The notes under the pieces are model-generated. The model saw only the letters and a program-made list of their open reading frames with translations, ran no database searches and was not told the DNA's origin. A stretch of DNA of 64,000 bases, from positions 1-64,000 of the forward strand of contig JAQBZO010000007.1 of assembly GCA_027622195.1 (NCBI GenBank), read 5' to 3'. The position numbers were made by a program, and so were the translations under genes. This stretch comes from Planctomycetota bacterium (GTDB lineage Bacteria; Planctomycetota; Phycisphaerae; Phycisphaerales; SM1A02). Of this stretch, positions 53,286 through 63,897 are shown in pieces (position 1 is the stretch's first letter; every line of letters begins with the position of its first letter).

Positions 53286-55030
53286 ACAGTCGTGCGAAGC
53301 GCATCCCCCACGGTGTCCATCAGCACGCGCCTTCGTGCCACACTCGAGGCGCGATCAATCTTGACTTCAGTCAGTGTGCTTTGTGGCGACGCGAATGCAT
53401 CTGCGAGAGCCTTGTTCAGGACAGCGGTCGTTTCTGCCTTCCGATAGTCCAAAGAGCACTGCCGCGCCATTCCCTCAAAGTTTGTCCCATGCGGAGTGGC
53501 GAAGAGTTTTTCGAACAGGGATCGGTCCGCAGCGACGGGGAGTGCCTCGAAGATGCCTCCTCCATCATTGTTCACGATCACGACATGCACCGGACCCTTC
53601 ACACGGCGAATCAACTCGAAAGACGATGCGTCATGCCACGCAGCGAGATCACCAAGAAGAACAATCACGGGCGAAGCAGTCGCGATCGCGTGTCCCGCGG
53701 CCGTCGCGAGAATCCCGTCAATGCCACTCGCGCCTCGGTTCGCAGCGACGCGAAGGACTCGATCCGATGCGCCGCCAAAGGCATCGGCGTCTCGCACAGG
53801 CATGCTCGAACTCAACATCACCGTGCACTCTTCTGGTGCATTGAAGAAGACAGCACGCGCGACACTCGGCTCATCCAACGACTTGGATCCCTTCATCGTC
53901 AGCTGAGACTGCAACACCGATTGAACGGTCGCGTCAGCTCGTTGCCAACCGATGAGCGCGCCACTGTTGTTGCAATCTTTCCATCCATCCAATCCCGCCA
54001 ACTCGGCGAGTGAAATGGAAGCATGATCCATCGCAGCGTGGGCGGGATCGCAACGCATTCCTTGTCCAACCACAATGAGTTGCGGAGCCTTCGCACACCA
54101 TTCATCCACCTGTTTCCACGCACATGGTCCACCGATGCGAAGGACGACATCGGGCGCGCAGGCAGCGATCATCTCTGGAACACTTCGGAGGATGAGGGAT
54201 CCATGCACACACACTCGGTTCGACACATGGGGGAATCGAAGTCCGCTCGCAATGTCAGCGATGACCGGCCACGGCACGCGCTGTGCCAAGGCGCGTGCGT
54301 GATACACGGAATCTGGATCATCGAGTCCACCAACGACCAAAACGCCTCGGCGCGCCGCCGAGAACTTCGCTTCCAATTCACTTGCATCGCGCAACCCAAC
54401 ATGCTGAGAGTGCGTCTTTCGCCACGGTTCATTGCTGGACTTCCAACGACGAATTGATGCGCCCGTCGCGAATGACCACGGTTTTGATTCGAGCGATAAC
54501 GGCTCAGCAAAAGCGCAGTTGATGTGAACGGGGCCAGCATTTGGACCCGTCGCATGGGCGATCGCTTGATCGATGGTCGAAAGGAAGAGACGCGGATCGC
54601 ATCCACTCAATGGCGCGGGAAGATCGATCGACCAGCGCACGAACGAACCGAAGAGTTGTGATTGGCGAATCGTCTGATTCGCGCCACAATCCAGGAGTTC
54701 CACAGGACGATCCGCGGTGAGGATGATCATCGGAGTTCCGCGCTGCGATGCCTCGACCACGGCGGGATAGAGATTCACCGCCGCTGTCCCACTCGTGGTC
54801 ATGACGACCGCTGCAGTCCCAGTGGCGCGCGCCATTCCGAGTGCGCAAAATCCTGCCGACCGCTCGTCGATCACCATCGTGAGCTGCATCGTCGCGCATC
54901 GCTCAGCAGCGATGACGAGGAGCGCACTGCGCGAGCCGGGGCTGGCCACAGCGTGTCGAATCCCCTGCCGAGCACATTCCTCCAAGAGAAGGGACGCGCA
55001 TGCAGCATTGATGTTCGGCCAGTCGCTCAT
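53282..55030 (-). CDS. menD: SEPHCHC synthase
   Basis: GIRHAVASPGSRSALLVIAAE; GMARATGTAAVVMTTSGTAAVNLYPAVVEASQRGTPMIILTADRPVELLDCGANQTIRQ; VIVNNDGGGIFEALP. Confidence 0.95.
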   Translation of the reverse strand: MSDWPNINAACASLLLEECARQGIRHAVASPGSRSALLVIAAERCATMQLTMVIDERSAGFCALGMARATGTAAVVMTTSGTAAVNLYPAVVEASQRGTPMIILTADRPVELLDCGANQTIRQSQLFGSFVRWSIDLPAPLSGCDPRLFLSTIDQAIAHATGPNAGPVHINCAFAEPLSLESKPWSFATGASIRRWKSSNEPWRKTHSQHVGLRDASELEAKFSAARRGVLVVGGLDDPDSVYHARALAQRVPWPVIADIASGLRFPHVSNRVCVHGSLILRSVPEMIAACAPDVVLRIGGPCAWKQVDEWCAKAPQLIVVGQGMRCDPAHAAMDHASISLAELAGLDGWKDCNNSGALIGWQRADATVQSVLQSQLTMKGSKSLDEPSVARAVFFNAPEECTVMLSSSMPVRDADAFGGASDRVLRVAANRGASGIDGILATAAGHAIATASPVIVLLGDLAAWHDASSFELIRRVKGPVHVVIVNNDGGGIFEALPVAADRSLFEKLFATPHGTNFEGMARQCSLDYRKAETTAVLNKALADAFASPQSTLTEVKIDRASSVARRRVLMDTVGDALRTTV

Positions 55031-56415
55031 TGTGCAGAAGAACTCGGTCGTAACAGTGCGTCAAATGTCTCGAGTTTTCTCGCTGTTTCGAGCCACTCTG
55101 CATCGGCATCGGATCCCTCGACGATTCCCGCTCCTGCGAACGCCATCACACGCGAATCTCGAATCAACGCTGACCGAATCCCCACTGCGAAATCGCTTGC
55201 CGCGCCACACGCGACGCCGACCACTCCTGCATAGAGCCCGCGCGGAGTCGATTCGCAAAGACGAATCGCTTCCATCGCCTTCGAGGCAGGAACGCCGCAC
55301 ACTGCTGGAGTCGGATGCAACGCCTCAATGATGGCTTCGTCATCCACCCCCTCGAACAACGCTCCGCGCACTTCAGTCACGAGGTGCTGCACATGCGTGA
55401 GACGCACCACGCGAGGTTGTGATTGCCAACTCAGTTCCGTCGAGAGAGGACGAAGCGCATCATCGATGTGACGAACGGTGATCTCGTGCTCTCGGCGATT
55501 TTTTTCGCTTCGCAACAGGCGCGCCGCCAATTGTTCATCCGCCTCTGGAGTGGGGCCTCGTCCGCAGGTGCCCGCAACGGCGTGGCTCTCGATGATGCGT
55601 CCACGCCGACGAACGAGTCGCTCGGGAGTGGCCATGACGAATGCGGTTCCCGCGCGCGGTTCAACAACACTGAGGTAGGCCGTTGGCTCTTCGGTTCGCA
55701 GTCGAACCAAGACAGAGAATGGATCAACGGGCGTCGGTTGTTCATAGCACCGCGTCCGCGCGAGCACGATTTTTTGCGCCACGCCCGTCTCGATCAGTCC
55801 AAGCACTCGCTCCATTGAATCAGCCCATACGGCGGGATTGTCATCGCCTGCAAGAGCGAATCGTTCCGCGGTCGCGATGGTTGTTGTTGCACGAACAGCC
55901 GCGAGCGCGCGAAGTGCACCCTTCACATCACCGCACACCGTCAATCCAACGCTGCACCGTCCACCTTCGCGACGAATGTCGATCCGCGGAATCACGACAC
56001 GCCGCGCACCAAAGTCGCTCCATTCACCGACCGCGGTCGTGCCGAGGTCGAACATGGACCAGGCAAATCCGACAGGACCGGTGCATGTGGCCGAGCGCGT
56101 GCTCAAAGACAAAAGGTCGGCCACGGCCTCATCTCTCAGAGAGTCTCCGAAGCACGCGATACCGATGCCAGCGACTTCATACTCAGAACCAGCTCCAACG
56201 CCGCCGCATGATCTGAAATACCAGCGCCGTCCCGCCACTTGGCTTGCGCACCATGAAAGTGGATCAGTCAACCCAACCGAAGCGCGAATATGAAGATGCG
56301 CACACTCGTCGGTGACGTGCTCGAGTCGGTCGGCGATCGCGTCGAATCCCTCGGCAAGGTCAGCACATTCCGAGATCCACTCCAACACCGCTTTTTGATG
56401 GTGAATCACCGACAT
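55027..56415 (-). CDS. menF: Isochorismate synthase
   Basis: VAQKIVLARTRCYE; PTAYLSVVEPRAGTAFVMATPERLVRRRGRIIESHAVAGTCGRG; HPTPAVCGVPASKAMEAIR. Confidence 0.92.
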   Translation of the reverse strand: MSVIHHQKAVLEWISECADLAEGFDAIADRLEHVTDECAHLHIRASVGLTDPLSWCASQVAGRRWYFRSCGGVGAGSEYEVAGIGIACFGDSLRDEAVADLLSLSTRSATCTGPVGFAWSMFDLGTTAVGEWSDFGARRVVIPRIDIRREGGRCSVGLTVCGDVKGALRALAAVRATTTIATAERFALAGDDNPAVWADSMERVLGLIETGVAQKIVLARTRCYEQPTPVDPFSVLVRLRTEEPTAYLSVVEPRAGTAFVMATPERLVRRRGRIIESHAVAGTCGRGPTPEADEQLAARLLRSEKNRREHEITVRHIDDALRPLSTELSWQSQPRVVRLTHVQHLVTEVRGALFEGVDDEAIIEALHPTPAVCGVPASKAMEAIRLCESTPRGLYAGVVGVACGAASDFAVGIRSALIRDSRVMAFAGAGIVEGSDADAEWLETARKLETFDALLRPSSSAQ

Positions 56416-56589
56416 AAGGGGTTGGGGATGATATGAACAACGTCGGCTCGTCCAAAGGAGAGACCACTAATTGTGTTATCGGACTTCGTTCTGCATCATC
56501 TCCCCCGTCCGCTCCACTCGACCTTGGTTTCTTGCCAGAACACCCGTTCCCGCTTGGCGGTTGCCGTAGCCATTACGATCCATCCTCCC

Positions 56590-57843
56590 ATGAATTTTCG
56601 CCGTCGAAAACGAGCCATCCATCACGCTGAAGCGCACGCTGACGGAACTCCTCCTGCGGCGATCGTTTCGCGCGAAGGGATTCCTCAGGGTGAGGCTGAA
56701 CTCCTTCACGACGAGAATGCGATCAACGAATTCGCGAACCACATTCGAGTGATGGGGAGTTTTGCGTTCGACACCGAGTTCATTGGTGAAGAGTCTTTCT
56801 ATCCTCAGATCTGTCTCGTGCAAGTGGCGACCTTCGATCGCATTGCGCTGATTGATCCGCTCGAAGTGGCCGACCTCGGTTTGATTTGGGATCTTGTCAC
56901 CGGACACGAAGTCGAGTGCATCGTCCATGCGGGTGGACAAGACATCGTCTCGGCGCAACGATTCGCTAATCGCACCGCGCAGAACATCATCGACACCCAA
57001 GTTGCTGCGGGATTACTCTCGATGCCTTGGCCAACATCGCTGTCGAACACGATTCATGCGATCATCGACCATCGCATCGCGAAGGGACATACCTTCACCG
57101 AGTGGGCGGAGCGTCCTCTCTCTCCGAGCCAGTTGTCGTATGCGGCGGATGACGTGCGCTACCTTCCATTGATCTGGAAGACTATGAAAACCCGCCTCGA
57201 AGAGGCTGGTCGATTGGACTGGGTTCGACGCGAGTGCGCAGCATGCATGGTGTCGAACGATGCATTTGATCCAGATGGACAAGTGCGCCGAGCGTGCAGG
57301 GGGCTCACGCTGCGTCCACGCACGATGACGATTTTGCGCGAATTGGTCATTGCACGACATGACATTGCGAAACTTGCCGACGCGCCGCCACGAGCGTTAA
57401 TTCCAGATTCAGTACTGCTTGACACAGCACGCACCAAGCCAACTACCGCCGCGGAACTTGATGAACTGCGAGGCATGCCGCGACCTGTGGTGTCGTCGTA
57501 TGGTGATCGATTGCTCGCGGCGATCGCCCACGGTGTGGCGCAACCGACCGAGCGCGACGCAGATTGGATTCCACAGAAAGAAGACGCAGGAGATCGCATG
57601 TCGGTCGATGCGCTCTGGTCCATCATCACGATGCGCTGCATCGCCACAGGGATGGCTCCATCGATGCTCCTTTCACGCAGCGAACTCGCTCAGTGGTATT
57701 TGCGACGCCGCCGCGGTTCTCACGCGCCGCTCTTTGCCAGCGATGATTGGCGCGATGAGGCACTTGGACGTTGGCTCACAGGATTCCTCGCCGGGGAAGA
57801 GCGTTTTGAGATTGGTTGGAGCGGTAACGGTCCTTCAGCCTGA
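56590..57843 (+). CDS. Ribonuclease D-like 3'-5' exonuclease with HRDC-type C-terminus
   Basis: FAFDTEFIGEESFYPQICLVQVAT; VHAGGQDIVSAQRF; QLSYAADDVRYLPLIW. Confidence 0.9.
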   Translation: MNFRRRKRAIHHAEAHADGTPPAAIVSREGIPQGEAELLHDENAINEFANHIRVMGSFAFDTEFIGEESFYPQICLVQVATFDRIALIDPLEVADLGLIWDLVTGHEVECIVHAGGQDIVSAQRFANRTAQNIIDTQVAAGLLSMPWPTSLSNTIHAIIDHRIAKGHTFTEWAERPLSPSQLSYAADDVRYLPLIWKTMKTRLEEAGRLDWVRRECAACMVSNDAFDPDGQVRRACRGLTLRPRTMTILRELVIARHDIAKLADAPPRALIPDSVLLDTARTKPTTAAELDELRGMPRPVVSSYGDRLLAAIAHGVAQPTERDADWIPQKEDAGDRMSVDALWSIITMRCIATGMAPSMLLSRSELAQWYLRRRRGSHAPLFASDDWRDEALGRWLTGFLAGEERFEIGWSGNGPSA

Positions 57844-57860: not shown

Positions 57861-59171
57861 ATGGCGACTGCCGTGAATCACTGGAACTTCACCCCTCCAC
57901 CACCATCCGACTTGGGCGACCATGAAGTCCGACAAGAGACATCGCATCTCGAAGGACGCTCGATCGCACTTCTGGTTTCTGGCGGCATCGCAGCGATGAA
58001 GGCACCGATGGTCGCTCGCGCCCTTCGTCGCCAGGGCGCGCAAGTCACTGCCTTTCTTTCAGCGGATGCGCTGCGCTATGTCACCGCCGACACCATGGCG
58101 TGGAGTACGAACCGACCCGTCATCACCTCGCTTTCTCCGCGGGCCGAGCATCTTTCGGACGCCGAGCATTTTGACCTCTATCTCGTGGCTCCCGCCACCT
58201 ACAACACCATTGGCAAGTGTGCGCAAGGCATCGCTGACGGATTGCTCAGCGCGACACTTGCGAGCGCGATCGGTCGCATGGAGCGCGGTGGTTGCCGACT
58301 CCTCTTCGCCCCCACCATGCACGGCTCGATGCACAATTCCATTCTCACTCGCAACATGATGACGCTGCGTGAACTGGGTGTTGAATTCATCGCGCCACGC
58401 GAGGATGCTGGAAAACACAATCTTCCTGACGAAGAACGCATCGTCTGGGCCGTCTGCTCATCCCTCTCAACGAGTTCGCTGAGTCAACAGTCCATCCTGA
58501 TCACAGGTGGACCGATTCCAGTTCCACTCGATAGTGTGCGAACGATTTCGAATCGCTTCACGGGTCGACTCAGCATCGAGATCGCACGCGAATTGACACT
58601 GCGCGGAGCGAAGGCACATCTCATTCTGGGAAGTGGAAGCGCTCCTGCACCAGCGTGGATTTCGCACGAGATCGTCTCGAGTCTGGATCACTACAGCGAG
58701 GCGGTGCTCTCTCGATTGGATGCCACTCCACACGCCGCATGTGTTCTCTCTGCCGCGGCGGCGGACTTTGTGCCAGAGAGCGTGCGTGTCGGCAAGGTCT
58801 CGAGTCACACACCGTGGACGATCTCTCTCTCAGCCGCTCCAAAGGTGATCGATCGCGTGCGTGGTCGCCATCCGTCACTCTTCCTTTGTGGATTCAAGTA
58901 CGAAGAAGGCATCTCGGTCGACCAACTCCTCGCGATTGGACAAGATCGCGCGGCACGCGACGGCGCATGCGTCGCAAGTCTCGGTAATGATTTCCCCGTG
59001 CAACAGGACGGTCACTCTTCTCACAGTCAAGTGAGTTGGATTTGCACACGACATGCTGAACCGAAGCGCGTCGAAGGCAAGCGATCGATCGCCGTGGCGA
59101 TTGCCGATCTCCTTGAAATCGCCACTACTTCGACCGTTGGTGCAAGAGCGAGAGACGCGCAGATCCGTTGA
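57861..59171 (+). CDS. coaBC: Divergent CoaBC-type phosphopantothenoylcysteine decarboxylase/synthetase
   Basis: IALLVSGGIAAMKAPMVARALRRQGAQVTAFLS; YLVAPATYNTIGKCAQGIADGLLS; ITGGPIPVPLDSVRTISNRFTGRL. Confidence 0.8.
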   Translation: MATAVNHWNFTPPPPSDLGDHEVRQETSHLEGRSIALLVSGGIAAMKAPMVARALRRQGAQVTAFLSADALRYVTADTMAWSTNRPVITSLSPRAEHLSDAEHFDLYLVAPATYNTIGKCAQGIADGLLSATLASAIGRMERGGCRLLFAPTMHGSMHNSILTRNMMTLRELGVEFIAPREDAGKHNLPDEERIVWAVCSSLSTSSLSQQSILITGGPIPVPLDSVRTISNRFTGRLSIEIARELTLRGAKAHLILGSGSAPAPAWISHEIVSSLDHYSEAVLSRLDATPHAACVLSAAAADFVPESVRVGKVSSHTPWTISLSAAPKVIDRVRGRHPSLFLCGFKYEEGISVDQLLAIGQDRAARDGACVASLGNDFPVQQDGHSSHSQVSWICTRHAEPKRVEGKRSIAVAIADLLEIATTSTVGARARDAQIR

Positions 59172-61413
59172 TCTCTCCAGCGCGGCGCAGCGCCTCGACT
59201 CCGATTCCGAAGTAAAGATCACACCGCGACGATCCTCGAATGGCTCCGCCCCGATCGGTGCAGACCACGAGCAGCGTGCGATGGATTCCATCAATCGTCA
59301 TCTCAAGAATCGCTGGCGCTCCTGGTGGTGCAATGGATGGATCGACCGCCACGCTGTGCATCGGAATGAGTTTCGGCCCAGTCTGTGATGGGGGAAACGC
59401 TTCAGCAGAAACCTCTCGCCAATACACATGCCTCGCATTCTCATTCATGCGTGCGCGCACCGCATTGGGATCACGATCCCAGATCGCGCGAATCCCTTCG
59501 AGCGAAACTTCGCTCTGCGCAATCACTCCATCACGGACCAACAAACGCGCAAGACTCGAATACGGAAGTTCATTCGTGCCATCGTGTGCAAGATGAAGAC
59601 TCTCACCGTTGCCAAGGCGAATGACAACCGTGCCGTTCACTTCGGCAAGGTAACCCTCGAGCGTATGAGTCGCCCACGCCAGCACATCGCTCGGATTCGA
59701 CATCGCCTCCGCGCGCGCGATGCCAGGCTCTCGATGCGCCAATGTGACCGGACGACTCAGCAGTGGCCACCACGTTTTCTCAGCGGGCGGAATCTCACTG
59801 CCACGATGCCCATTGATTTCAGGTGTCGCATATCCCGTGAGTTGGAGTGTCTCTCCCTCTGTCGTCGGGGACATCACCAATTGCGACTCGATGACCCCGC
59901 GTTGGCTGGGGGACGCAATCCACTCACCGACCAGATGGAGCGTCTTCTCGGTGATGGACGAATCAAACCCATGCTCAACACACGCTCGTTCTCCCGCAGA
60001 AGAATCAACCAGAGCGGTTGCTCCACCGATCGCCTCCTTCATCGCGGCCATCGACTCGGCACCAATGTCAAGGCACTTCCAAGGCACTTCCAGCACAGGC
60101 CAATGCGCTGAAGAAGTTGAGACAGGAGCCGCGACCGAGTCAATCACTCGGTTGCAGTACACCTCGCCCTTCGCGTCGACAAATCGCACGCGCAGTTCTG
60201 CCCCGTGCGCATCATCGCGCGCCGAGAGCAACGCCATCATGTTCGCGTGTCCGAAACTCGCTTCAACCCAAGTGCTCGGAGTCCACAGCGACGCATCGTG
60301 CACTTTGGCATGCATTGGACTCGACACGATTTCAATCAAGTCATATCCAACCGTAGCAGCGGTGGGATGGCGAAGGATGCGACTGTTATGAACATCTCCA
60401 CTTGCGAGCACAACGCCTGTGACTTGTTCCTTCCCCAGGAATTGCGTCATGCGCGCATACTCTTCCGGATACATCCCCCAGAAATCTGTCTTGAGTGGGC
60501 GCACAGCACTGTTCCATACCAATCCACACGCCAACAGCTTCCACCGTTTGGTGCTCGCCTTGAGTCCTTTCTCAAGCCATGACCACTGCTCTGCACCAAG
60601 GAGTCCCCACTTCTCGGAGTCTTGCTCAGATCGCTCGGTGCGCGAAAACCAACGCGTATCGAGAACGAACACTTCGACGGGTCCGCACTCAAACTTGAAA
60701 TAGATCCCTTGATCTCGAGCCCCCGCGGTTGGATTGTGATGCCAAGCGAGAAATGCTCGACGCGATTTCTCTTTCCCTTCGAGCCGTCCATCGGTGTCAT
60801 TCTTGCCGAAGTCGTGATCGTCCCATGTTGCGTAGAGAGGACGATCACGCAGCAAACTTTGCATGGAACCCATTCCCAAAAACTCTCCGTAGCGCTTCAG
60901 CTGCGTTGCCAAGTCAGTCGTGTCGATGTACGGCGTGTCACCGAGAAGGAGCACTGCGTCGGGATGCCATCTTTCGATCTCGGCGCAGATCGCTTGACTT
61001 CCAACATCTTCAGCTGAGCAAGAACCAATCGCAATGGTCGATCGCGTGTCACTCAGCGGGCGCGTGTTGATGAACCCTCCGACATGCCCGCCAATGGGAG
61101 TGCCATCGGCCATCGCCACCTCGTACCGATACCGCTTCGCTGGCTCGAGTCCTTTTACATCCCAGTGAATGATCAACGGGTCCGGCTCAGCCCGAGTACC
61201 CAATGCGGCAGCAACGACGGCATCGGTCGTCCCGTCATGAATCACGAGAGTCGGCGCAACGGTTGCCCCCTCGACTCGCGCCCACACCGCTGCCGACGAC
61301 GTGGTGACGGCGCCGACGAACGGACCATGTGTGGTTGACAGAGAATCCGCGATTGGCCCGCCCTTCAAGGACGCTGCGGCGATGACCATCACGACAATTT
61401 TTTGAGTGAGCAC
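59125..61413 (-). CDS. Fusion protein: N-terminal PhoD-like phosphodiesterase/alkaline phosphatase + C-terminal MltA/3D-domain lytic transglycosylase
   Basis: PhoD: IAIGSCSAED, LLGDTPYID, YATWDDHDFGKNDTDG, VLASGDVHNSRIL. MltA: LTGYATPEINGHR, AEVNGTVVIRLGNGESLHLAHDGTNELPYSSLARLLVRDG, VVCTDRGGAIRGSSRCDLYFGIGVEALRRAG. Single uninterrupted frame; start GTG 61413 or ATG 61389. Confidence 0.87.
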   Translation of the reverse strand: MLTQKIVVMVIAAASLKGGPIADSLSTTHGPFVGAVTTSSAAVWARVEGATVAPTLVIHDGTTDAVVAAALGTRAEPDPLIIHWDVKGLEPAKRYRYEVAMADGTPIGGHVGGFINTRPLSDTRSTIAIGSCSAEDVGSQAICAEIERWHPDAVLLLGDTPYIDTTDLATQLKRYGEFLGMGSMQSLLRDRPLYATWDDHDFGKNDTDGRLEGKEKSRRAFLAWHHNPTAGARDQGIYFKFECGPVEVFVLDTRWFSRTERSEQDSEKWGLLGAEQWSWLEKGLKASTKRWKLLACGLVWNSAVRPLKTDFWGMYPEEYARMTQFLGKEQVTGVVLASGDVHNSRILRHPTAATVGYDLIEIVSSPMHAKVHDASLWTPSTWVEASFGHANMMALLSARDDAHGAELRVRFVDAKGEVYCNRVIDSVAAPVSTSSAHWPVLEVPWKCLDIGAESMAAMKEAIGGATALVDSSAGERACVEHGFDSSITEKTLHLVGEWIASPSQRGVIESQLVMSPTTEGETLQLTGYATPEINGHRGSEIPPAEKTWWPLLSRPVTLAHREPGIARAEAMSNPSDVLAWATHTLEGYLAEVNGTVVIRLGNGESLHLAHDGTNELPYSSLARLLVRDGVIAQSEVSLEGIRAIWDRDPNAVRARMNENARHVYWREVSAEAFPPSQTGPKLIPMHSVAVDPSIAPPGAPAILEMTIDGIHRTLLVVCTDRGGAIRGSSRCDLYFGIGVEALRRAGEINGSARLSLLHQRSK

Positions 61414-61449
61414 GAACGAGTTATACCGAACCGAATACGATGGTCTGCG

Positions 61450-63897
61450 ATGATCGACCAGGGCGCGACAATTGATTCCGCAGCGATGCCGCCTGATCCG
61501 CGGCGTCCGAAACGACCTGCCTCGCACGACGAGGAGGCGACGATGCCTCTTGAGAAAGAGTCCACCCGAATGCTCGCAGGAACAGGCACGGGCACCTACC
61601 GCCTGATGCGCATTCTCGGCGAGGGTGGTTTCGGCTCCGTGTGGCTCGCCGAACAAACGGCACCGCTGCGACGCGAGGTCGCGCTCAAAATTCTCAAGCA
61701 TGGAATGGACTCCGAAGCGATCGTCGCTCGGTTCGAGACAGAACGGCGAGTTCTTGCTCTCCTTGACCATCCTTCTCTTTCGCGCGTCCTCGATGCGGGC
61801 AAGACTCCTGATGGACTTCCATTCTTCGCAATGGAGTATGTCCGCGGAGACCCGCTCGACACCTACGCCGATTCACAGAGTCTCGACCTCCGAACTCGCG
61901 TCGAACTCCTCATTCAAGTGTGCGAGGCGGTTCAGCACGCGCACTCTAAGGGTCTCGTTCACCGAGATCTCAAGCCAGGCAACATTCTTGTCGGACCCGA
62001 AGGAAAGTCACACCGAGCAAAAGTCATCGACTTCGGTATCGCGAAGGTGCTGCACAGCGCGGCGTCCGACGACTCGGCCACGATGGTGGGACAGATTCTC
62101 GGCACACCCGCCTACATGGCTCCCGAACAAGCATCACCTGGCGCGGTCGATGTGGACACGCGCGCCGATGTCTATGCACTCGGTGTGGTGTTGTACGAAA
62201 CGCTCACAGGATCCCTTCCGTTCCCACGAGACCTGCTTCGCACGGCGGGAATGCAAGAGTGGCAGAGACAGCTCTCTGACATCATTCCGATGCGTCCAAG
62301 CGCACGCGTCAAAACTCGAATCGGATCATCGACTCCCGAAGACACCGCCGCATTCATCCAACAAAGACGCGACACGCTCAACGGACTCTTCTCCACGATG
62401 CACCGCGACCTGGACTGGATCGTCATGCGCTGCCTCGAGAAGAATCGCGACCGACGATACGCCAGCGCTGCAGCTCTCGCCGATGATCTGCGCCGTTACC
62501 TGCGCGGAGACCCCGTTGAAGCGGGTCCTCCCACGCTCCGCTATCGCTCAAGTAAGTTTGTCAAGCGTTACAAGGTCGCCGTGGTCACTGCAGTCACTGC
62601 TGTGGGATTGCTCATCACGGCAACCGTGTTCTCGACCCTGATGTGGACTCGAAGCGAGACGGCGCTCCGCCGAGCGCAGGCAACACTTGGCACTTTTGTT
62701 GGATCGCTCTCGACCGCGAGTCCCGATTCGGGTGGAACCACATCAATGGCGTTCGGCGAGTTCATGAACTCCGTCGAAAAAAATGCCGCGCAGTCGCTCG
62801 CTGAAGAGCCATCGGTTGCAGCCACACTGCTTCACCTCATTGGAACACTTCGACTCTCGGCGTTCGACCATGTTGGCGCTGAGCGAGCACTCTCTCAGGC
62901 AGTCTCGCTTCGGAGGAACGATTCTTCAAACAGCGTTTCTCAAGCGACGCTCGGCCAGTCTCTTCATGACTATGGACGATCACTCTATTTTCTGAAGAGA
63001 TACGAGCACTCGCGCCTCGCCTACGAAGAAGCCCTGTCCATTTGGATCATAAATGTTGATCCAAGCCACGAGGCTGAGACACTGCTCCATCTTGGTTCGG
63101 TGTATGCCGCGCTCGTCCAGCCAGACGCTTCCGGGAAGTCGTTTGACGCTGCGATTGCGAGATTGACCGAGCATCATGGCGAAATCCACGTGGACGTCGC
63201 CGGTGCCTACTTCTCACGCGGACAACAAGCGCTTCGAACAGGACAATTGGAGGACGCTCTTGCCGACTATACGAACACCGTTGAGATTCTCCAGCGCGCT
63301 GTGAAAGAGCCAGAATATCGGCTTGGACGGGCACTCGGCGGTCTCGCAGGACTGCAAGCCAAGTTGAACCAAGTCGGAGCATCAACCGCAAACTACAAGC
63401 GGAGCATTCAGAATCTTGAAGCCACTCTCGGCGCAGAGCACCCTTCTCTTCTCAACACCAAGGAAGACTTTGCACGCCTTCTTCTCGACTGGGGCGATGC
63501 AGCCCAAGCATCAACCGTCCTCGACACCGTCGTGCCTCCAAGGCGCCGCCAGGGCGATAAGCCAACCGCACTTCTCAGAACTCTCGAACTCAATGCGATC
63601 GCGCATCTTCGAAACAGCGACTTCAATGGAGCCGTTGCCATTGCGAACCGCGCTCTCGACCTTCAGCGCGAGTTGTCCCCTGCCGGAGGACTCGTGACAG
63701 CACGAATCTTGTTGCTGGTCGCGAATGCCATGATGAAACTCAACGATCCACAAGCCACGATCATGCGATTCATAGACGAGGCGATTACTGAGTGTGAGCG
63801 TGCGGGAGAACCTGGCGCCGAGCTCCTCAAAACTGCGCACGCTGACCGAGAAATACTCCTCGCAATGTCCAACACTAGCCCGCCTATTTCAAAGTGA
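61450..63897 (+). CDS. Membrane-anchored Ser/Thr protein kinase with TPR-like C-terminal region
   Basis: ILGEGGFGSVWLAEQ, LVHRDLKPGNILVG, VIDFGIAKV; TM segment VVTAVTAVGLLITATVFSTLMW; helical repeats downstream. Confidence 0.92.
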   Translation: MIDQGATIDSAAMPPDPRRPKRPASHDEEATMPLEKESTRMLAGTGTGTYRLMRILGEGGFGSVWLAEQTAPLRREVALKILKHGMDSEAIVARFETERRVLALLDHPSLSRVLDAGKTPDGLPFFAMEYVRGDPLDTYADSQSLDLRTRVELLIQVCEAVQHAHSKGLVHRDLKPGNILVGPEGKSHRAKVIDFGIAKVLHSAASDDSATMVGQILGTPAYMAPEQASPGAVDVDTRADVYALGVVLYETLTGSLPFPRDLLRTAGMQEWQRQLSDIIPMRPSARVKTRIGSSTPEDTAAFIQQRRDTLNGLFSTMHRDLDWIVMRCLEKNRDRRYASAAALADDLRRYLRGDPVEAGPPTLRYRSSKFVKRYKVAVVTAVTAVGLLITATVFSTLMWTRSETALRRAQATLGTFVGSLSTASPDSGGTTSMAFGEFMNSVEKNAAQSLAEEPSVAATLLHLIGTLRLSAFDHVGAERALSQAVSLRRNDSSNSVSQATLGQSLHDYGRSLYFLKRYEHSRLAYEEALSIWIINVDPSHEAETLLHLGSVYAALVQPDASGKSFDAAIARLTEHHGEIHVDVAGAYFSRGQQALRTGQLEDALADYTNTVEILQRAVKEPEYRLGRALGGLAGLQAKLNQVGASTANYKRSIQNLEATLGAEHPSLLNTKEDFARLLLDWGDAAQASTVLDTVVPPRRRQGDKPTALLRTLELNAIAHLRNSDFNGAVAIANRALDLQRELSPAGGLVTARILLLVANAMMKLNDPQATIMRFIDEAITECERAGEPGAELLKTAHADREILLAMSNTSPPISK

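Follow-up and report, generated by a model that had tools for sequence, protein, structure and literature searches.

On the minus strand of a Planctomycetota contig, one open reading frame joins a PhoD-type phosphoesterase to an MltA-type lytic transglycosylase, and we consider it reasonably probable that the product is a conserved exported envelope enzyme with two activities, whose halves would share one phosphate-bearing glycan as their target. The window, i.e., the whole stretch of DNA that was analysed, covers 64,000 nucleotides of contig JAQBZO010000007.1, which sequence hits place in Planctomycetota and, judging from the named relatives, probably in Phycisphaerales. An earlier note made from its letters alone had claimed a single frame with PhoD motifs followed by those of MltA and its 3D domain; every motif quoted there was present, and open reading frame analysis gave one uninterrupted frame of 762 codons (minus-strand 59125-61413). 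The stop-to-stop length of this frame is 915 codons; it remains open as far as 61770, overlapping the kinase gene that runs divergently, and the GTG at 61413 is a plausible start because a hydrophobic segment comes next. Residues 428-525, at about 60.13 to 59.84 kb, make up the linker together with the N-terminal section of the MltA half. The features of the gene and its neighbours are collected in Table 1.

Table 1. Coordinates of the PhoD-MltA fusion gene, its parts and its neighbours in the window
Feature	Position	Strand	Remarks
PhoD-MltA fusion open reading frame	59125..61413	-	762 codons followed by a stop; GTG taken as start
N-terminal hydrophobic export signal LTQKIVVMVIAAASLKGG	61354..61413	-	without lipobox; read from the sequence; helix 2-16 in the model
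PhoD N-terminal beta domain, residues 29-104	61102..61329	-	weak PhoD_N/DUF7800 match, below cut-off; strands in the model
PhoD catalytic domain, residues 130-374	60292..61026	-	C132, D159, Y162, D198, D199, N205, D206, D340, H342
Linker and N-terminal part of MltA domain, residues 428-525	59839..60132	-	profile-profile match
MltA-specific insert domain, residues 566-666	59416..59718	-	Pfam PF03562
3D domain, residues 687-757	59143..59355	-	Pfam PF06725; D691, D720, catalytic-type D732
Serine/threonine kinase with TPR repeats, divergent from fusion	61402..63897	+	conserved neighbour in g1, g2
CoaBC-type flavoprotein (Flavoprotein and DFP), convergent with fusion	57861..59171	+	conserved neighbour
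RNase D-like 3'-5' exonuclease with HRDC domain	56473..57843	+	conserved neighbour

For the N-terminal half, the Pfam PhoD model (PF09423) matched residues 130-374 of the 762 amino acids with an E-value of 1.1e-26 and 94.3 bits against a cut-off of 27, and a match by sequence to the PhoD structure 2yeq was also obtained (E 5e-10). The structure model showed a PhoD fold with pLDDT mostly 85-95 over residues 30-427, and its best match in the PDB was again 2yeq. In the alignment of intact fusions, the ligands C132, D159, D198, D199, N205, D206 and D340 and their partners Y162 and H342 were invariant in 8/8 proteins, and H342 and N205/D206 were nearly invariant among 20 PhoD relatives too. The Fe/Ca ligands of Bacillus subtilis PhoD are C180, D207, D265, D266, N271, N272 and D436, the need for which is known from mutation, and replacement of Asn-272 by Asp in other PhoD members is an allowed change (PMC4223295). 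The ligand set of the fusion corresponds to this set when N205/D206 are equated with N271/N272, which assumes a one-residue insertion before the ND pair in a stretch that phmmer aligned gap-free. Judging from these residues, the PhoD domain may function as a metal-dependent phosphodiesterase or phosphatase.

The C-terminal part, which the earlier note had read as MltA with a 3D domain, matched both Pfam models and solved structures. The MltA insert model (PF03562) matched residues 566-666 (E 8.8e-18, 65.3 bits against a cut-off of 24.3), the 3D model (PF06725) matched residues 687-757 (E 6.8e-15, 55.5 bits against a cut-off of 23.8), and by sequence the C-terminal half matched the MltA structures 6qk4 (7e-24) and 2gae (2e-17). 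In an hhalign comparison with other MltAs of the order, the probability was 100 over 312 columns with the N-terminal part included, and as judged by this profile match an entire MltA is present in the fusion, with nothing of the N-terminal region missing. Residues D691, D720, D732, T526, Y528 and Y618 were invariant in 8/8 intact fusions in the alignment; the first four are the equivalents of D261, D297, catalytic D308 and T99 of Escherichia coli MltA (PMC4499186), and the two tyrosines are those of Tyr121 and Tyr200 of MltA in precursor numbering (PMC8562663). Two substrate contacts of E. coli MltA, Gln162 and Ser164, are absent in the alignment, being replaced by N593 and T595. The Asn is also invariant at the Q162 position in other and housekeeping MltAs of the lineage and thus does not exclude MltA membership, and Thr at the S164 position was seen in the window protein only. 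The score against the NCBIfam model for murein transglycosylase A (NF008366) was 93.9 bits, below the equivalog cut-off of 242, and by NCBI's rule the MltA half is a relative, not a same-function orthologue, of that family. A separate housekeeping MltA, distinct from the fused one, is present in the same genomes. The structure model is of low confidence in the MltA half (mean pLDDT about 30-50), so that the mutual orientation of the two sites cannot be read from it; it is reliable for the PhoD half only, because its alignment was without MltA relatives. The MltA domain is probably a complete lytic transglycosylase, which would cut MurNAc-GlcNAc bonds to give 1,6-anhydro-MurNAc.

Seven relatives carry the same fused frame, i.e., G001 and G002 of the same genus, G003 of genus g2, and G018, G150, G154 and G156 of genus g17, so that together with the genome of the window (G000) eight intact fusions come from three genera (g1, g2 and g17) of one family, with 35-60% identity per domain in whole-genome searches of relatives. 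The junction, at which a frameshift or stop could have separated two genes, is thus read through in independent assemblies. An artefact of assembly or annotation, in which a missing stop or a frameshift merged neighbouring genes, might be suspected from the contig ends that lie inside the fusion gene in 5 of 9 g17 genomes (G151, G152, G153, G155 and G157; L135-L139, L162 and L163); the eight intact frames and the gene order kinase - fusion - CoaBC - RNase D, which is kept in g1 and g2, make it scarcely credible, however, and it was ruled out by the recurrence of the same frame in independent genomes. The frames of G151 and G155 cross the junction and are then cut short by the end of a contig; G152 has its halves on separate contigs with overlapping ends. 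Two contig ends in G151 overlap with small differences, as expected from strain variation.

Both halves are under purifying selection; in comparisons among four g17 genomes, dN/dS was 0.09-0.17 in the PhoD part and 0.10-0.27 in the MltA part, with most values near 0.1-0.2, and 0.17-0.36 in the linker. That the PhoD half is a pseudo-enzyme, whose sole task would be binding or capping in the service of MltA, is very unlikely, since none of the metal ligands varies and selection on the domain is purifying, and direct support for this explanation was not found. Outside g1, g2 and g17, no fusion was found among the matches listed in the class sample (397 genomes, MltA profile) or in the phylum sample (392 genomes, whole fusion profile), where two candidates were scored per genome and rare fusions may be missed, and no relative of the MltA half was found in viral contigs. 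Long frames in g60 and in G006/G008 were considered as further PhoD-MltA fusions and rejected, as their N-terminal domains differ. In the open-licence literature, PhoD and MltA occurred together in one paper, each named once, and no description of the pairing was found, nor of Planctomycetes with PhoD plus a lytic transglycosylase; the architecture thus appears to be undescribed, its novelty lying in a new joining of two known enzymes.

The fused MltA domains formed one group in the tree (support 92/88, and 95/87 without two long branches), which is separate from the housekeeping MltAs and adjoins stand-alone lipoprotein MltAs of the sister genera g33 and g54. The PhoD domains also formed one group, including an unfused gene of G158 as sister to G003. 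In G158 (genus g2, 55% complete) the same locus has a PhoD gene without MltA that ends next to CoaBC, and elsewhere in the genome a single MltA-type match, similar to the housekeeping copy, was found; this genome does without the MltA half, and the coupling is therefore not indispensable. A separate fusion in G003 was not rejected in tree tests (AU p 0.43 and 0.40), and a single fusion origin followed by one loss of MltA in G158 is favoured as the simplest account of these trees. PhoD of the same subfamily was also found behind a type I phosphodiesterase/nucleotide pyrophosphatase domain (L034 1964-5023, with similar frames in L124 and L131), and also behind a 3-keto-disaccharide hydrolase domain (L010 700-2673 by Pfam, L012 697-2700 by similar sequence). 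These partners fit a role on phosphate-bearing glycans.

The same data bear on whether the two enzymes need share a substrate at all, as two useful exported proteins could have been joined by chance and have only export and anchoring in common. The PhoD without MltA at the same locus in G158, the several unrelated partners to which the PhoD subfamily is joined, and the poorly conserved linker are what such neutral tethering would lead one to expect, but the fusion has been kept over three genera at the identities given above with purifying selection on both halves, and we regard this explanation as rather unlikely.

Regarding the gene neighbourhood, the fusion and the convergent CoaBC-type gene share 47 bases at their 3' ends (window 59125-59171), and a chorismate-binding enzyme gene (window 55027-56415) adjoins the RNase D-like gene, a block with synteny in G001 and G002. 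Two genomes, G002 and G003, have the fusion gene downstream of PSD/DUF1592-type and DUF1552 genes (L156 9617-13557 and L157 3678-7382), with the stop/start overlaps GTGA and TGATG indicating a translationally coupled operon that includes the fusion; this gene pair does not adjoin the fusion in the window or in G001. What is left of the pair in G158 is a chimera of the two, 214 codons long, next to the MltA-less PhoD (L164 1966-2610). DUF1552/DUF1592 proteins as a general partner of PhoD were rejected, since only G002 and G003 have them as neighbours on the same strand, apart from the remnant in G158.

As judged by eye and not with a signal-peptide predictor, lipobox-like signals are present in 6/6 g17 fusion proteins with the N-terminus read; the signals of G001, G002, G003 and the window are Sec-like and show no clear lipobox. 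The periplasm is the most likely place of action of the fusion, which would be tethered to a membrane in g17, and in g1 and g2 probably be soluble or only loosely bound. The earlier note had proposed an exported bifunctional enzyme that couples phosphate scavenging, or the removal of a phosphodiester-linked envelope polymer, to peptidoglycan turnover. The genuine fusion, the export-type signals and the intact residues of both active sites uphold the exported bifunctional enzyme, whereas its proposed roles stay conjectural. LCP ligases (PF03816), the enzymes by which polymers of the teichoic-acid type are attached, were found in 0 of 61 genomes of the lineage by a search that was positive in seven control genomes, a result that weakens the case for removal of a teichoic-acid-like polymer. 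To our knowledge, no phosphodiester-linked wall polymer is known in this lineage. Phosphate scavenging lacks regulatory support, in that no E. coli-type Pho box was present in the window, although this consensus may not apply in Planctomycetota.

In the reading that we favour, the joining would be explained by a common target, where PhoD would strip a phosphoester from a wall-associated sugar or oligosaccharide and MltA would cut the chain, and as a coupled result either the C6-OH would be unblocked for the transglycosylase, or phosphate and amino sugar would be freed together. The 1,6-anhydro ring that lytic transglycosylases close on MurNAc requires a free C6-OH; some Gram-negatives have an esterase that removes acetyl groups from this MurNAc C6, where teichoic acids are attached too (PMC6174289). 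A more specific form, in which PhoD clears a phosphoester or polymer from MurNAc C6 so that the fused MltA can close its 1,6-anhydro ring, would make the protein a self-unblocking lytic transglycosylase and give evidence for an unknown phosphodiester-linked wall modification in a lineage where LCP ligases were not found; it seems quite improbable. Nutrient scavenging is possible but somewhat unlikely; here, wall material from other bacteria or from the cell's own turnover would be digested, PhoD would liberate phosphate and MltA amino-sugar fragments, and no unblocking would take place. The housekeeping MltA in the genome leaves the fused MltA free to specialise, and two related genomes have the fusion coupled in one operon to planctomycete genes of the PSD/CBM60 and DUF1552 types; both observations speak for scavenging. 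Moreover, PhoD enzymes release phosphate, that of B. subtilis having been proposed to free teichoic-acid phosphate in starvation (PMC4223295), and Bdellovibrio secretes an MltA acting on foreign peptidoglycan (PMC10127604). Against it stand the lipobox-like signals in g17, which speak for a cell-bound enzyme, and the want of a Pho box in the window, within the limits of the E. coli consensus.

Two enzymes that are well known singly are thus found in one exported protein, and the pairing has been kept over three genera. If the common substrate that we favour is correct, one would expect phosphate on the peptidoglycan, or close to it, in Planctomycetota, the wall chemistry of which is little studied. 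Related genomes offer natural comparisons, namely the fused gene, the MltA-less PhoD at the same locus and the stand-alone MltA.

Several known systems can be compared with the fusion. The O-acetyl-peptidoglycan esterase Ape and lytic transglycosylases (PMC6174289) would offer an analogy in which a block at C6 is removed first, although the bond that Ape hydrolyses is an acetyl ester instead of a phosphoester, and that paper does not describe it as transglycosylase-fused. Similar to the fusion, the Sps/YuiC proteins of Firmicutes carry a 3D-type transglycosylase domain within varied multidomain proteins, joined to LysM, G5 or SH3 domains (PMC4499186); the partners named there are not phosphoesterases, however, and YuiC is without the MltA insert domain. 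The nearest tree relatives of the fused MltA, the stand-alone short MltA lipoproteins of g33 and g54 (L140-L148), differ in being unfused, and PhoD, where found there, is a separate gene on another contig. With E. coli MltA and GNA33 (PF03562 and PF06725) the fusion shares a whole MltA, the three 3D aspartates and the equivalents of T99 and Y101, whereas in comparison to E. coli MltA the fused copy is a divergent second MltA of the family with Asn for Q162, placed C-terminally on a PhoD protein. The PhoD half resembles B. subtilis PhoD (2YEQ; PF09423) in fold (Foldseek E 5e-22), Fe/Ca ligand set and export; it differs in having about 18% identity to it in the fold alignment, an extra residue before the ND ligands, and no modelled C-terminal capping helix, the MltA domain being found at that end.
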